64,000 nt of DNA from Coleofasciculus sp. LEGE 07092 (GTDB taxonomy: Bacteria > Cyanobacteriota > Cyanobacteriia > Cyanobacteriales > Coleofasciculaceae), in assembly GCF_015207375.1 (NCBI RefSeq), contig NZ_JADEWY010000007.1:1-64000 (forward strand). The letters run 5' to 3'. Positions 4,354 through 62,238 of this stretch are shown one piece after another. The translations under genes were made by a program, and so were the position numbers. The notes below the pieces were generated by a model that ran no database searches, was not told where the DNA came from, and saw only the letters and a program-made list of their open reading frames with translations. Position 1 is the stretch's first letter; every line of letters begins with the position of its first letter.

Positions 4354-4441
4354 GAAGATAGGGTTAGGGGGATCAGCACTATCCAAACTCAGCTCTTCTA
4401 CTATTGTGTACTCTTCTAGCTGTCCTAGATGGCACTAGTAC

Positions 4442-54616: not shown

Positions 54617-56875
54617 ATGGATACAATAACACTCAAACTGCGAGGCATGAGCTGTGCCTCTTGCGCTAGCAATATTGAAGAAGCTATTCGCTCTGTACCA
54701 GGAGTAAATGAATGCAACGTTAACTTTGGTGCAGAGCAAGCCAGTGTAAAATATGACCCCCAAAAGACGAATATAGAAGCAATCCAAAACGCTGTTGAAG
54801 AGACAGGCTATTCAGCTTACTCCCTCCAGGAACAAGAAATGATCACTGGAGAAGATGATACTGAAAAAGCTGCCCGAAAAGCAGAATCCCGCGACCTTTT
54901 AATTAAAGTTATTGTCGGAAGTGTAATTAGTGTCATCCTAATTGTGGGTTCTCTACCCATGATGACGGGGTTGCAGTTACCCTGGATTCCTGCATGGTTG
55001 CATAACTCTTGGTTTCAGTTAATCCTGACAGCACCCGTGCAGTTTTGGTGTGGTTATGGGTTCTATATCAATGCTTGGAAAGCCTTTAAACGCCATACCG
55101 CAACCATGGATACGCTGATTGCATTGGGTACGAGTGCGGCGTATTTTTACTCGGTGTTTGCCACTCTATTTCCTGACTTTTTCATTAATCAAGGTTTGAT
55201 GCCAGAGGTATACTATGAAACCGCCGCTGTTGTTATTACCTTAATTCTGTTGGGGCGGTTTCTGGAAAATCGCGCCAAAGGTCAAACATCAGAAGCGATT
55301 CGCAAGCTTATCGGTTTACAAGCGAGAGATGCTCGTGTGATTCGAGATGGGCAAGAAATCGATATTCCTATCGAAGAAGTCCAAATTGATGATGTAATCT
55401 TAGTACGTCCGGGAGAAAAAATTCCCGTTGATGGTGAATTGACAGAAGGCAATTCAACGGTAGATGAAGCGATGGTGACGGGGGAAAGTTTACCTGTTGG
55501 CAAGCAGCCTGGAGATGAAATAATTGGCGCTACTATTAATAAAACAGGTAGCTTTAAATTCCGGGCAACGCGAGTTGGTAAGGATACGGTTTTGGCACAA
55601 ATTGTCCAACTCGTGCAGCAAGCACAAGGTTCTAAAGCGCCCATTCAACGATTAGCTGATCAGGTGACGGGATGGTTTGTGCCTGTGGTGATTGCTATTG
55701 CGATCGCTACTTTTATTATTTGGTTCGATGTTATGGGAAATTTAACCCTGGCACTAATTACTACAGTCGGTGTTTTAATCATTGCCTGTCCTTGTGCTTT
55801 GGGTTTAGCTACTCCTACTTCGGTAATGGTAGGAACGGGTAAAGGTGCAGAAAATGGTATTCTAATTAAAGGTGCAGACAGTTTAGAGCTTGCACATAAA
55901 ATTAGGACAATTGTTTTAGATAAAACAGGAACTTTGACAGAGGGAAAACCCACAGTTACAGACTTTATCACCGTACTGGGTACTAGGGACGGTAACGAAT
56001 TAAAACTTCTGGGTTTGGCAGCCTCTGTAGAACGCAATTCTGAACATCCTTTAGCAGAAGCAGTGGTTAGATATGCTCAATCTCAAGAAGTTAAATTAAC
56101 AGATGCTAGCAATTTTGAAGCTATTGCTGGAAGTGGTGTTCAAGGAACTGTCTCAGAGCATTTAGTGCAAATTGGTACGCAGCGTTGGATGGAGGAACTT
56201 GATATTGATATCAATGTTTTCCAAGAGCATAAAAATAGGTGGGAAATAGCAGGAAAAACAGTGATTTGGATTGCTGTTGATCGGGAAATTCAGGGGTTGA
56301 TGGGAATTGCCGATACTCTTAAATCGTCTTCACCTGCTGCGGTTATAACACTGCGGCGGATGGGTTTGGAGGTGGTGATGCTAACAGGAGATAATCGACC
56401 AACCGCAGAAGCGATCGCATCAGAAGCTGGCATTACCCGCGTCTTTGCCGAAGTGCGACCTGACCAAAAAGCAGACAAGGTGAAAGAATTGCAGTCAGAA
56501 GGCAAAATTGTGGCAATGGTGGGGGATGGGATTAATGATGCGCCTGCCTTGGCACAGGCAGATGTGGGGATTGCGATTGGGACAGGAACGGATGTGGCGA
56601 TCGCAGCTTCTGACATCACCCTGATTTCTGGAGACTTGCAGGGTATCGTCACTGCCATTCAACTCTCCCACGCCACGATGCGAAACATTCGCCAAAATCT
56701 CTTCTTTGCCTTCATTTACAACGTTGCTGGAATTCCGATTGCTGCTGGAATTTTGTTTCCTATCTTTGGCTGGTTACTGAATCCAATTATTGCAGGCGGA
56801 GCGATGGCGTTTAGTTCTGTCTCTGTCGTGACTAATGCTCTGCGTTTACGAAATTTCCAGCAAAAAAACACCTAA
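54617..56875 (+). CDS. copA: Copper-translocating P-type ATPase
   Basis: 752 residues, P1B-1 type. An N-terminal HMA domain has Cys13/Cys16 ([11 protein letters not shown]). Eight membrane helices follow, with the ion-path CPC at residues 391-393 ([11 protein letters not shown]). The phosphorylation Asp435 is in DKTGTLTEG, the nucleotide site in SEHPLAEA, and the hinge in [15 protein letters not shown]. It exports Cu(I) or Ag(I) from the cytosol. It is in one transcription unit with the chaperone upstream and the cupredoxin 24 bases downstream. Confidence 0.96.
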
Positions 56876-56899: not shown

Positions 56900-57424
56900 A
56901 TGGTCAACAAAAATAATATTTTGGGAAGTTTAGCGGGTATTGGATTTCTGCTTTCAATTGTCTCAAATGCCGCAGTGGCTGAGATGCCACTTGAAATGCC
57001 AGCATCCTCAACAGAACAAACAAGTCAATTCCGCCGTATCGAGCAACCTTTAGCGTTGAAACTTGCTGTCACCTTAAGTGGCTTAGGTTTAATTGGACTA
57101 GAACTATGGTGGTTTCGTTTCAGTAAAACAAAAGCGGCTCAAGCTGATGTTAATCAAGAAATGCAGGAGATGACAATTGCAGTAGACGGGGGTTATGAAC
57201 CGAATCGAGTAGTTGTCAAGGCAGGTAAACCTGTACGGCTCAATTTCTTACGCCGCGACCCCAGTAGTTGTTTAGAAAAGGTCTTATTACCTGATTTTCA
57301 TATTGCTAGAGATTTGGAGCTGAATCATACTACCCCAGTTGAATTTACCCCCGAACAACCAGGGGAATATCAATTTACTTGTGGGATGAATATGTTTCGG
57401 GGAGTTGTGGAAGTGGAAAAGTAA
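56900..57424 (+). CDS. Membrane-anchored cupredoxin-domain protein
   Basis: 174 residues. Two hydrophobic segments (about 8-27 and 53-72) precede a cupredoxin beta-sandwich (about 85-174). Possible copper ligands are Cys and His in SSCLEKVLLPDFHIARDL and Cys plus two Met in FTCGMNMFRGVVEV, similar to the EfeO/Cupredoxin_1 group found next to copper ATPases. It probably receives or buffers exported copper in the periplasm. It shares the chaperone-copA operon. Confidence 0.85.
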   Translation: MVNKNNILGSLAGIGFLLSIVSNAAVAEMPLEMPASSTEQTSQFRRIEQPLALKLAVTLSGLGLIGLELWWFRFSKTKAAQADVNQEMQEMTIAVDGGYEPNRVVVKAGKPVRLNFLRRDPSSCLEKVLLPDFHIARDLELNHTTPVEFTPEQPGEYQFTCGMNMFRGVVEVEK

Positions 57425-57496
57425 CAAAAAATAAATATTTTCTGAAACAGAAGTTTTATCCAAACGAGCTTAACTGGAAATTTCGGAATAATAATT

Positions 57497-57561
57497 TGTA
57501 GGAACGGGTTTAACCAAGATATTGGTTTTTTCACCTAGATATCGGTAAACCCGCCCCTACA
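57497..57561. terminator. Inverted repeat between convergent copper operons
   Basis: TGTAGG..CGGGTTTA..CC (57497 onward) pairs with GGTAAACCCG..CCTACA ending at 57561. The loop contains a second small dyad, AGATATT/TAGATATC, and a TTTTTT run. Lying between two convergent transcription units, it could serve both as a terminator. It also belongs to a dispersed TGTAGGGGCGGGTTTA-type repeat class. Confidence 0.55.
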
Positions 57562-57572
57562 ACAACCTGCCA

Positions 57573-58277
57573 TTACCAGCCTTGATGCATCCTACCCATT
57601 CCCGGACGACGAGGACTGCCATCTCTACCGCCGTGCATACCTCCCGGCATTCCAGCGACACCGAACCAATCTTTTAACCAGCTTCGCATCTGCCAAATTT
57701 CATCTCGTTGAGTGGTAGCAATGTGTTGCGCGAAGGGACGCACGGGTTCATGTTCGACGAGATTGTGATTCACCAGCATTCGTGACATCATCACAGCACC
57801 CATATGGTGCATGATCATGTCTTCTAAGAAAGCTTGATCTAGTTCATCTCTTTGAAGTTGACTTAAATCGCGCATCATCGGTGTATAAGTCAGCGAACTT
57901 TCCTGCCCCAGGTACCACTGATCTAACCAACTCTGCATTTGCTCAAGCTCGGCACTTTGTACGTTAATAATGTTTTGAGCAAAGGCTCTCATTTCGGGGC
58001 GATCGCTCCTTTCTAGCACCAATTGAGCGGTATCAATAGCTTCTTTATGATGGGGAATCATCAAACTAAAAAACTCAAATTCGTTGTCAGCTTGCATATG
58101 CTGCATCATGCCCATGTGCTGTCCAGCCATACCGTTCCAAGTAGAAGCGGGGGTTCTGTTGTCGAAGGGTATGGCACGTATGGCACGTGAAACTAAGTGG
58201 GGATTAGCCGCAAGAGTGGCAGAGGTAGCGATACCAGCACCTGCCAGGATAATCAATGAAATTTTTTTGAGCATCAT
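57573..58277 (-). CDS. copM: DUF305 copper-binding protein, CopM-like
   Basis: 234 residues. An N-terminal hydrophobic leader (about 5-24) is followed by two DUF305 halves, each with paired His/Met: MIPHHKEAIDTAQLV and MIMHHMGAVMMSRML. A Met/Gly/Arg/His-rich tail follows. It is the apparent counterpart of Synechocystis CopM, a periplasmic Cu-binding protein made with the CopRS two-component system. Its start codon overlaps the end of the truncated kinase gene (CTATGATG). This is the only gene of the minus-strand cop group that looks whole. Confidence 0.85.
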   Translation of the reverse strand: MMLKKISLIILAGAGIATSATLAANPHLVSRAIRAIPFDNRTPASTWNGMAGQHMGMMQHMQADNEFEFFSLMIPHHKEAIDTAQLVLERSDRPEMRAFAQNIINVQSAELEQMQSWLDQWYLGQESSLTYTPMMRDLSQLQRDELDQAFLEDMIMHHMGAVMMSRMLVNHNLVEHEPVRPFAQHIATTQRDEIWQMRSWLKDWFGVAGMPGGMHGGRDGSPRRPGMGRMHQGW

Positions 58278-59266
58278 AGGAAGCGATCGAAAATTTGTTT
58301 CTGATCTTCAGGGGCAATGCCAATTCCGGTATCTTGGATCTGAATCAGAGCGTAATGCTGATAGCTATCGAGAATTAGAATAACCTTGCCATCAGCAGGA
58401 GTGTATTGAATCCCATTGGTGACTAAGTTGGAAACCAGACGATACAGTTGCTCTTCATTACCCATAATCTCCAGGGGTTGCGAGACTCGCATTTCCGTAG
58501 TTAGGTTTACATCTGCTGCCATTGCCAGAGGCGCTAATTCTTCGGCAATATCGCTGAGTAAATCATTGAGGGAAACGCATTCATTCTTTGCGATCGCATT
58601 TTGTTGGCTGAGTAATTCCTGCCGATCCATGCGGCACAATAGCAACAGAGCATCAACAAGTTGAGAGAGTCGGTAATTCTGGCGTCCCACCACTCGCAGT
58701 GTTTCTCGTGACTCTGACTCGTTGAGCTGATTGAGTCGCAGGGTTGATTCGATAGTAGCTCGAATCGCGGCTAAGGGAGTGCGTAACTCGTGAGCGGCAT
58801 CTGCTGTAAACTGTTGAATTTGCCGATAGGATTGGTAAATGGGCTTTATGGCGAGTCCCGCTAACCACCAACTGCAAATGCCAACTAGGAATAGGGCTAT
58901 CGGTAATCCCAATAATATAATCCACCGGACGGCTGTTAAATAATCGTCAAAGTCTTTAATCGATCGTCCCACTTGCAGATATCCCCAGAAGCGATTGTCT
59001 TGGGTGTGCAACAGTAGGGAGATTTGGCGATAACGTGTACCATCGCTATCGGTGAGAGTGTGCCATTGCGGTTGTGAGGTATCCCTGGCAGTTGGCGGTA
59101 ATCCCTCTGGCAGTTGTTCGGTAAAGGCAATGAGTTGTCCTGATCGGTTGAGGAAACGCAGGTAGTAGTCCTCTCGGCGAATTATACCGATCCGATGACT
59201 CTCACCGTCAGACTTCTGATTGAAGCAGGAAGTACCCAGGATACAAACATCCGGTAGCGATCGCAC
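58274..59266 (-). pseudogene. copS: Copper-sensing histidine kinase (CopS-like), truncated at both ends
   Basis: 330 codons. The sensor region (DYYLRFLNRSGQLIAF...) lacks its first membrane helix. The second helix (about 112-136), HAMP-like stretch, H-box His159 (FTADAAHELRTPLAAIRA), N-box (SNLVTNGIQYTP) and G1/F-box (QDTGIGIAPEDQKQIFDRF) are kept. The protein then ends in Leu-stop, so the G2 box (GLGLA) and the rest of the ATP lid are absent. The first 30 codons overlap the response regulator's 3' end out of frame. It is unlikely to phosphorylate. Confidence 0.75.
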
Positions 59267-59628
59267 CCATATTGCGCTAATTTTCGTCGCAGTAGGCGCA
59301 TTTGAGCCGCAACAACATTACTCATTGGTTCAATTCCTACTTCCCAAAGCCGATCTAAAATTTGGTCGCGGGTAACAATTTGGTTAGGATGCCTCATGAA
59401 ATATTCCAGCAACTGAAATTCTTTAGCAGTGAGGGAAATGTCCTGTCGATTCCCATTGGTATCCTGCAACCAAACAGAATTGGCGGTGTAGTCTGTATAT
59501 TGGCTTTCTAGATAGTCCCATGCCTCGCTACCATCTAAAACCCAGTCAACCACATAGGCTTCTTGATGCAGAGTCCGTTTAATGGCAGCACCTAAATCTG
59601 GCTCATCTTCAACTAACAACACCTTCAT
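59182..59628 (-). pseudogene. copR: Response regulator (CopR-like) with internal deletion
   Basis: 148 codons against about 230 for OmpR/PhoB regulators. Residues 1-46 are a receiver start (KVLLVEDEPDLGAAIKRTL). After YTDY the sequence jumps to TANSVWLQDTNGNRQDISL, the start of the DNA-binding domain, so the phospho-acceptor Asp, switch Thr and Lys are gone. The winged helix is good up to MRLLRRKLAQYGC, then leaves the family (lost VHGLGYRL). It starts nine bases after the fused pump gene. Probably non-functional, or a phosphorylation-independent remnant. Confidence 0.75.
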
Positions 59629-59636
59629 AAAGTATT

Positions 59637-61609
59637 TTATTGGACATTAACCCAGAAATCAGCCGTAACAATTTCACCATTGCGATCAAACTGTCCCCAC
59701 AACTTATACGTTCCCGGTTCAGGGAAATGAGTAACAAATTTCACTTCTCCAGCAGCATAATCCTTTAGAGCATGGGCATGAATGTAATCGGCTGCTGTTA
59801 AGTTCGATGACTGTTTCAGAATAACTAAATGTCCTCTTTCTCCCAAGTACGGTTGCAAATCGGTTACGGGCTGGTTATTAACTGTATCTTGTAAATTAAA
59901 CCCTACTATTACTTCTTCCCCAGCTTTTATCGTTGGCTGATCGAATGTCAGATTAACTTGAGTATTGCCAAACATCTTGGTGAGATTAGTATCCTCAGCC
60001 GTGGCTACTAATTTAGCACCAGTAACTGTTGTTTTTACTAAATAAACTCGTTCTGGTTGCTCCATTGGTTTGTAATCGCTAAAAATTGTATAAGCCCCAG
60101 CTTTCGGCAAATTTGCTTCCACTTCAAAACGACCATTCCCTTTGTAATCAGGATGAAGATGCAGGAAAACCTGAAGGTCATCACTGACGACAATGAGATG
60201 CATCAGCTTTTCTTGAAAAGACTCAAAATCAGCAATTGCCTTCCAAGTCTCTTCTTCTGGTAATTGCTGATTTGCCAGTAAGATGGCACACAACGCCGGA
60301 CTCAGGGTTAATGCCACAAACGTTGAGGCAAAAATTGACACCAAATACGCCACCCCCATCGGCGCAAAAATCCGCCCTTCTACTCCTGTGAGTGAGAAAA
60401 TCGGTGCAAAAACAACGGCAATAATTACCGTGGAAAACAGCACACTGACCCGCACTTCCACTGAAGTATCATAAACCACTTGAAAGGGAGGCTTAGGATT
60501 TCCAGCAAGTTGGTTTTTCCGTAACCCCCGATAGCAGTTTTCCATATCCACAATTGAGTCATCCACCACTGACCCAATTGCGACTGCCAATCCTCCTAAT
60601 GTCATGGTATTGATACCCTGACCAAATAAGTTCATCAGCATCAAACAAATTAAAAGAGAGAGAGGAATAGCGCTGAGGGTAATAGCGGCAGTGCGCCAGT
60701 TCATTAAAAATAGGAACAGGATAATCGAGACAATAATAATGCCATCCCGCAGGGAATCTCTGACATTGTGAATAGAAGCATCAATAAAATCAGACTGGCG
60801 AAAGGTAACGGTTACTTTGACATCTGGAGGCAAACTCGGTTTAATTTCTTCCATCGCCGCTTCCACCGCTTTCGTTACCGTGGAAGTATCTGCCATTGGC
60901 TGTTTATTGACCATCACCACAACGGCTTTTTTGCCATCCAAGCTGGCATCCCCCCGCTTCAATGCCGCACCAATTTTGACATCCGCTACATCAGAAAGCA
61001 GAACGGGTGTACCCTGGTGTGCCGTTATAACTGATTGTTTCAACTCTTCAATCGACTCAATTCTGCCAATCCCTCGAATTAGCATTTCTTGGTCTGGAGT
61101 AATTAAAAAACCTCCAGCCGCATTTGTATTTGCCCCCCCTTACTAAGGGGGGGTGGATTTTGAATTTCAATCGTGAAGGCATATTGAATAACTGTGCCAA
61201 TAGGGGAAGAAATCGGCGAAATTTGCGGCGTTTCCACTCCTTCCGGCAATCGAGTAGTTGCTTGCTGCAAGCGTTCAGTAACTAACTGCCGTGCTTGATA
61301 AATATCAGTACCCCATTTAAAAATAACTTTTACCACTGAAAGACCAACCCCAGAAGCGGAACGCACTGTAGTGATGCCAGGAGTCCCATTAATCGCACTT
61401 TCAATGGGTAGGGTAACGAGAGATTCGACTTCTTCCGGTGCGAGTCCCGGTGCTTCTGTTTGAATCTCAACTTGAGGCGGTGCGAATTCGGGAAACACAT
61501 CCAGGGGCATTCGGGAAACGGTAATAAAGCTCCAAACGGTGACAATAACGGCACCAATTACAATTAACCAGCGTTGAGCGATCGACCATTTCAGGATGGT
61601 GTTGAGCAT
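59637..61609 (-). pseudogene. RND copper efflux pump (CusA/CopA-type) remnant fused to a CopC-like tail
   Basis: The first 140 codons (61609 down to about 61180) are a good CusA start with helix 1, PLDVFPEFAPPQVEIQTEAPG and NGTPGITTVRSASGVGL. A short run containing the C-rich hairpin CCCCCCTTAGTAAGGGGGG interrupts it at about 61130-61160, with a deletion and frameshift. A second frame resumes at NTNAAGGFLITPDQEML and continues to helix 4 (GGLAVAIGSVVDDSIVDME) and LTLSPALCAILLANQQLP. It then switches without stop to a His-containing domain (KLMHLIVVSDDLQVFLHLHP ... GHLVILKQSS). The second half of the pump is missing. Confidence 0.8.
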
Positions 61610-62238
61610 TTATCACGTGTCAGTGTTAGAATCCCTTCCTAGATTGTTGACACATGAAAATGAAATTAGGATGAAATGCGATGGGTTCGCTGCACCGATA
61701 GCGCTAGCGCATCAGATGTTAAAGATGAAGCAGGTTAAAGAAAGAGCAGTTTATAGTGGGGATGTTAAGCCTTAAAATTTGAGGCAATGCTAAGTAGTAG
61801 ATTCAAAGAAAACATTTAAACCCTGTTATGCTCCTGGATGATTTCACTTATTTACTACTTGCTTAATCCGGAAAGTGACAGAAAAGGGATATGTGCGAAA
61901 TAGGGCAACGAGGAGCTGAAATGCTGGTTCTGTCAAAACCATCAGACACTCTTTAGAGATAGAACTCCCCGATGTAGCGCTGAGAGATACTCGTTCGGTG
62001 CGATCAAGCTGAAAAGGTTAGTAATTACTGCCAGAAGACGACTCTAGCCAGCGAAATAACACTCGATGTAGGACAGGCATCTTGCCTGTCCCTGACTGTC
62101 CCTGGCACGCTAGCAAAATATCCAGAAGAAAAGGCAAACCATGAAAAATAAATTTTGACTCAGTATGAGTTAATCGTCGATAGTACAGAGCAAATGATTG
62201 GCAAATGCTCTATATTGAAGCCATTAAACCTTTTGCCT
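61610..62238. other. Region between trpE and the cop remnant
   Basis: 629 bases. It contains the TTTCAT repeats above and a perfect hairpin, GGACAGGCA-TCT-TGCCTGTCC (62071-62091). The membrane-fusion gene (copB) that normally precedes the pump is not found in any frame. No other gene is supportable. Confidence 0.5.
61654..61676 (-). promoter_or_regulatory. Direct TTTCAT repeats upstream of the pump gene, candidate CopR box
   Basis: Read on the minus strand, TTTCATCCTAATTTCATTTTCAT contains three TTTCAT hexamers. The first two are spaced exactly 11 bases, the pattern bound by dimers of OmpR/PhoB-type regulators. It lies about 45-67 bases upstream of the pump start. A damaged OmpR-type regulator gene lies in the same cluster. 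Confidence 0.5.

Follow-up and report, generated by a model that had tools for sequence, protein, structure and literature searches.

The stretch of DNA analysed here, called the window throughout, comprises 64,000 nucleotides (nt) of Coleofasciculus sp. LEGE 07092 (contig NZ_JADEWY010000007.1, positions 1 to 64,000) and contains what look like the remains of a copper-resistance locus. On its minus strand, from 61609 to 57573, lie four gene remnants and then one whole gene, copM. The remnants are those of the resistance-nodulation-division (RND) pump gene cusA, a gene for a CopC-like protein, a response regulator gene and a sensor histidine kinase gene. They were delimited by tblastn comparison of the window with proteins from 15 loci fetched from 14 related genomes, each locus being used wherever it held the gene. 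Alignment to these intact relatives, together with profile matches, bears out two claims of a first-pass annotation of the same DNA, namely that the gene set resembles copBAC, copRS and copM and that at least five segments have been excised: five junctions (J1-J5) separate the retained pieces. The break points agree across relatives, falling at the same window positions to within a few residues, except that single CusA alignments extend further in loci L038 and L036. Neighbouring pieces abut to within a few bases, the exception being J1, where 32 nt (61134-61165) intervene.

CusA is about 1020-1056 residues long in relatives, of which residues 1-148 and 222-520 are retained. Measured against Kastovskya adunca (G008), the surviving parts are CusA 1-150 and then 221-520 of 1056, regulator 1-48 and then 137-211 of 230, and kinase 75-397 of 450; the end of the second regulator piece varies between residues 208 and 214 with the relative used. 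The CopC-like piece begins at residue 85-133 of proteins that have 290-333 residues in relatives, the contig-end fragment L031 being left out of this comparison, and it is fused to the CusA piece in a single frame of 482 residues. What J2 removed had been described as the second half of the pump together with the beginning of the CopC-like gene. Both are indeed gone, and with them a small gene that relatives carry between the two. J3 (about 59489) removed 264 nt in frame, or 88 regulator residues, while J5 ends directly before the CopM start, which overlaps the stop of the kinase remnant. The features are collected in Table 1.

Table 1. Retained pieces, junctions and neighbouring genes of the locus, in window coordinates.
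Feature	Position	Strand	Remarks
TTTCAT-N5-TTTCAT box, CopR/RppA-box-like, surviving cusA promoter	61660..61676	-	sole such box in window
cusA piece 1, residues 1-148, start intact	61166..61609	-	93% identity to G008 CusA; part match to TIGR00914
J1 with hairpin filler CCCCCCCTTAGTAAGGGGGGG; about 70 CusA residues lost	61134..61165	-	tblastn, folding
cusA piece 2, residues 222-520	60243..61133	-	88% identity to G008
J2 (about 60241), inner edge of inverted-repeat arm	60226..60273	.	arms 60226-60240 and 60259-60273
CopC-like protein, C-terminal 201 residues and stop	59637..60242	-	61-66% identity to relatives of 290-333 residues
Response regulator (RppA/CopR type), residues 1-48	59485..59628	-	tblastn, profile match
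Response regulator, residues 137-211, after J3; last residues lost	59266..59493	-	tblastn
J4 at HIP1 GCGATCGC, with loss of the regulator's end and the kinase's start	59257..59264	.	
Sensor kinase (RppB type), residues about 75-397; both ends lost	58280..59266	-	tblastn, Pfam, NCBIfam
J5 beside CGATCG (58284-58289)	58278..58289	.	last ~53 kinase residues and former copM upstream region lost
CopM (DUF305), 234 residues, complete	57573..58277	-	PF03713 E 4.5e-55, profile 2-151/151; NF049983 104.1 bits
Copper P-type ATPase, neighbour, intact	54617..56875	+	profile matches
Cupredoxin-like protein, neighbour	56900..57424	+	PF13473

Family tests agree with this picture. The two CusA pieces score 220 and 147 bits, far below the cut-off of 701 bits for TIGR00914 (CusA/CzcA heavy-metal RND pump). 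The regulator, with residues 49-136 and its end gone, reaches 180.7 bits against a cut-off of 250 for NF041734 (RppA; RppA and RppB are the NCBIfam names for the regulator and kinase of such a pair). The kinase passes the NF041735 (RppB) cut-off of 400 with 456.6 bits, though it covers only 73-389 of the 438 profile positions, and its ATPase domain is incomplete, ending after IFDRF and before the GGSGLGL motif (HATPase_c 1-61 of 111). For the CopC-like gene the earlier reading needs a correction: a Pfam scan gave no CopC match for the C-terminal piece, the fused frame matching pump families only. CopM had been taken to be whole and is so, as it spans its Pfam profile almost entirely, passes the NF049983 cut-off of 90 and has both H-H motifs (IPHH, MHH). 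Periplasmic Cu(I) binding is reported for Synechocystis CopM (PMC4335983). A dispersed repeat lies immediately 3' of copM (57495-57562) and recurs at 83-93% identity on five further contigs.

None of the retained pieces contains a frameshift or an internal stop. Relaxed substitution was assessed by counting private changes, defined as positions where the window differs from a residue invariant across all other aligned sequences. This count replaced the ratio of nonsynonymous to synonymous substitution (dN/dS) because synonymous sites are probably saturated; the comparison left out matches spanning less than 88% of a piece and used no more than 25 relatives (10 for the CopC-like piece). The six pieces have 0/61, 0/151, 2/69, 0/15, 0/22 and 5/90 private changes, 7/408 in total, and single relatives have 0-10 per piece. 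Judged by these alignments, substitution decay is slight at most. The absence of frameshifts and stops combined with so little relaxed substitution means that the losses are either very recent, as was first suggested, or artefactual.

The promoter of the cusA remnant looks native. In L050 (the Kastovskya adunca locus) and also in L054, the same box as in front of it (Table 1) precedes cusA by about 70 nt. In a survey of TTTCAT-N4-6-TTTCAT in 80 loci (L044-L123), with genes labelled by sequence pattern and two boxes allowed per gene, 89 boxes were found, of which 19 lie upstream of cusB-like genes, 14 of cusA-like genes, 14 of DUF305 genes and 6 of response regulator genes. The motif is likely to be the box of a CopR/RppA-type regulon. 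Relatives often have such a box upstream of copM; in the window there is none. Selection for CopM alone, as raised in the first-pass annotation, may or may not have acted here: CopM is complete with both H-H motifs, but its gene has no such box in front of it.

The second pump gene, cusB, is absent from the locus. A search of the whole assembly located a 5' fragment on contig C162, on the minus strand from 4740, which is the only cusB match above 31% identity in the assembly and is 60-67% identical to relatives. It retains its own start and a TTTCAT-N5-TTTCAT box, and continues for about 108 codons up to a HIP1 sequence, GCGATCGC, at 4417-4424, although some relatives' alignments extend to codon 123. 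At this HIP1 the fragment meets, head-on, a truncated CHASE2 gene on the opposite strand (C162 3374-4740). The CHASE2 homology ends at about 4426, leaving an open frame of 370 residues where the best matches have 742 (G014) and 722 (G008). The assembly search found neither the remainder of cusB nor the C-terminal half of the CHASE2 gene, for which the best match, 48% identical, covered the GGDEF part (residues 210-378 of the 382-residue query). At the codons corresponding to the C162 junction, the CHASE2 gene of G008 has HIP1; that of G021 lacks it, and that of G014 was not caught by the search pattern. The gene neighbourhood of the cusB fragment differs from that of the cusA locus. A lost cusB directly upstream of cusA can be ruled out, there being no match at 61610-62238 and a native-looking cusA promoter, so that cusA and cusB were probably separate transcription units before the loss.

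With the C162 break there are six junctions, and five of them have palindromic DNA: the J1 hairpin, the J2 inverted repeat, HIP1 at J4, CGATCG at J5 and HIP1 on C162. The 32 nt of J1 sit in a CusA loop of variable length among relatives, and three hairpins similar to CCCCCCCTTAGTAAGGGGGGG, each with 3 mismatches, occur elsewhere in the genome. The J2 repeat has 15-nt arms that are 93% complementary, and the remains there are joined in frame. At J4, regulator and kinase meet at HIP1. The CGATCG of J5 belongs to kinase codons and is found also in L041 and L043. When the folding energies of 60-nt stretches were ranked among 3000 random stretches of the same genome, J1 fell in the lowest 0.6% and J2 in the lowest 1.6%. 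Compared with random positions of the same genome, CGATCG at 3/6 junctions has P 6e-4 and full HIP1 at 2/6 has P 7.5e-3, the motif in both cases having been picked after inspection.

The rest of the genome was searched, by DNA and by protein, for an intact copy of the locus, and none was found in the assembly; the collapse of related copies considered in the first-pass annotation thus receives no support. CusA-like genes on contigs C295, C225, C144 and C82 were considered as the missing parts and rejected as paralogues at 25-36% identity. Damage by deletion elsewhere in the genome was judged from sampled controls. Ten window proteins from outside the locus were submitted to NCBIfam and all nine that were recognised are full length; for ten from other contigs, eight were recognised and seven match at least nine tenths of their profile, the exception being a HisN-like protein that matches 220 of 252 positions. 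Among the receiver-domain matches listed, 147/150 span 100 or more of the 111 positions (by a hand count of rows, from 152 matches in all), and the three next-best RppB-type kinases extend to the profile end. On C46 (4004-4336, L147) a response regulator gene that neighbours an RppB-type kinase contains an in-frame TAG within the part coding for the receiver domain.

The possibility that the same short architecture is conserved in other strains was examined in the best 80 of 137 loci from genome contigs. No frame in these 80 loci serves as best match to both the CusA and the CopC-like pieces. CusA frames have at least 1000 residues in 72/78 cases, the six shorter ones being in L053, L084, L085, L091, L097 and L101. 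All 54 regulators with at least 50% identity have 226-257 residues, 21/22 kinases have at least 444 (the remaining one 335), and one of the seven CopC-like frames has only 177. Conserved mini-genes were accordingly rejected. The CusA frame of L053 (7311-9182, Lyngbya aestuarii BL J), just 623 residues long, is perhaps another decaying pump.

We favour, with a probability somewhat under two in three (about 0.62), a real, very recent and deletion-led loss of the CusBA/CopRS module, mostly by serial deletions, which left CopM behind the surviving cusA promoter. In favour of real loss, both cut loci, the cusA operon and cusB, belong to one copper system and the sampled genes elsewhere are intact; the agreement of the break points among relatives, the palindromic DNA at the junctions and the published HIP1 cases (below) also speak for this reading. 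A number of observations pull the other way. Five large deletions accompanied by no frameshift or nonsense mutation and by little substitution are odd for stepwise neutral decay, and for the kinase piece the window tops all 26 sequences in private changes (5, next 4), which speaks slightly against an absence of decay. The junctions come from a draft assembly of 296 contigs, in which three other RND pump genes (on C295, C225 and C144) reach contig ends. The cusB gene was looked up on purpose, other systems having been surveyed less deeply, and the former upstream region of copM is gone. As for the palindromes, J3 has none, and folding is ordinary at J4 (13%), J5 (35%) and C162 (13%), as it also is at J3 (52%). 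Counted over distinct sequences of relatives caught by a pattern, HIP1 occurs in 0/14 on the CusB side, 0/16 on the kinase side, 2/27 on the regulator side and 1/2 on the CHASE2 side. A review (PMC4390886) describes the role of HIP1 as little known and illegitimate recombination at HIP1 as of low efficiency. A HIP1 deletion mechanism is thus suggested and no more, because the motif was tested post hoc and relatives have HIP1 on only some of the parent sides.

An assembly artefact is less likely than real loss and is its main rival: thin or chimeric coverage would have led to small unitigs being joined at short overlaps such as HIP1, with the intervening sequence dropped. Several gaps within one locus, mostly of 0.2-0.3 kb and with little point decay, are what such joins would leave, the RND genes that run to contig ends fit it too, and 6-8 bp palindromes at the joins are also consistent with chimeric molecules; the CHASE2 gene cut at the C162 join, its other half not found, points the same way. 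Set against this, the sampled controls have no comparable damage, both damaged loci are of the same copper system, the retained sequence is free of frameshifts and no other contig was found to carry the missing parts of the pump. A single complex event, by replication template switching at palindromes in place of serial deletions, would explain the little point decay in any piece, the palindromes or hairpins at 5/6 junctions and the 32-nt hairpin filler at J1. Yet ancestral order and orientation are kept, no duplications or inversions are seen, and the hairpin at J1 may have entered the length-variable loop at an earlier date. We think such an event improbable; what probability it has falls largely within that of real loss. 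Functional short genes, with CusA and the CopC-like protein forming a chimera beside miniature versions of regulator and kinase, would accord with J2 and J3 being in frame and with clean coding inside the pieces. The chimera, however, has neither the beginning nor the second half of CusA, the regulator has no phosphorylation site, the kinase is missing the end of its ATPase domain, the architecture is absent from the 80 loci, and two in-frame junctions of five (J2, J3) is about the chance expectation; we give this idea almost no credence.

If the favoured deletion-led loss is correct, the ancestor would have had an RND copper-export operon in the order cusA, small gene, CopC-like gene, copR/rppA, copS/rppB and copM, from which several deletions would very recently have removed the pump and sensor functions. 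Palindromes, in the form of HIP1 sites and hairpins, may have given rise to these deletions through slippage or illegitimate recombination. Regulator and kinase are inferred from their sequences to be dead. The regulator cannot be phosphorylated because the residues around the usual aspartate (49-136) are lost, and its DNA-binding domain is cut short at the end; the kinase has lost its first membrane helix, and its ATPase domain, too, is without its end. With an unphosphorylatable regulator and such a kinase, copper induction through the pair should be lost. The RND loop following the sixth membrane helix faces the cytoplasm, and on this topological argument the fused CopC-like domain would lie on the wrong side of the membrane.

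Lacking a box of its own, copM would need transcripts that start at the cusA promoter, 3.4 kb away, to continue into it. Rho is generally not known from cyanobacteria, which would permit such read-through, so that copM may still be transcribable from that promoter. Copper tolerance would then depend on CopM together with the neighbouring P-type ATPase. For a Synechocystis copR mutant without copBAC expression, constitutive CopM is reported to restore copper resistance in part (PMC4335983). It is improbable, though conceivable, that a single bout of template switching or excision directed by palindromes took out pump and sensor and kept CopM behind a copper promoter, with CopM sequestration replacing inducible export; gene loss by deletion would then outpace point mutation. 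A real loss would mean that a metal-resistance module has been caught being lost by large deletions, most of their junctions having palindromes, before clear point decay, and would provide a natural case bearing on the old proposal of HIP1-promoted rearrangement in cyanobacteria. If the junctions are artefacts, HIP1-rich draft genomes may hold false gene losses.

Synechocystis sp. PCC 6803, with copBAC and copMRS, likewise combines an RND pump, a CopRS-type pair and a DUF305 protein, CopM. In Synechocystis salina (L072) a DUF305 gene, response regulator, histidine kinase, CusB and CusA are consecutive, whereas in the window cusA, the CopC-like gene, regulator, kinase and copM are consecutive with all but copM cut, and cusB lies elsewhere, also cut; the CopC-like protein of 300 residues has no match in L072. 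Also comparable are the intact loci of Kastovskya adunca (L050), Symploca (L054) and Moorena bouillonii (L046), which have the same kinds of genes, with up to 93% identity in the retained pieces. In them the frames of pump, regulator and kinase are all complete, and the gene order is somewhat different from that of the window; in L050 no CopC-like gene adjoins cusA. The TTTCAT-N5-TTTCAT box stands upstream of cusB in all three and upstream of cusA in L050 and L054.

As to mechanism, the locus adds a case to a type already described. Gupta et al. in 1993 reportedly described a HIP1-associated deletion in the cyanobacterial metallothionein locus, and one deletion in the repressor gene there is said to have accompanied higher tolerance; Robinson et al. 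in 1997 reportedly described HIP1-promoted excision. The later literature cites this work (PMC6331805, PMC4390886). Unlike in that precedent, several deletions in the window destroy pump and sensor, and HIP1 is found at only some junctions; in both, GCGATCGC is involved in a deletion at a metal-resistance locus of a cyanobacterium.

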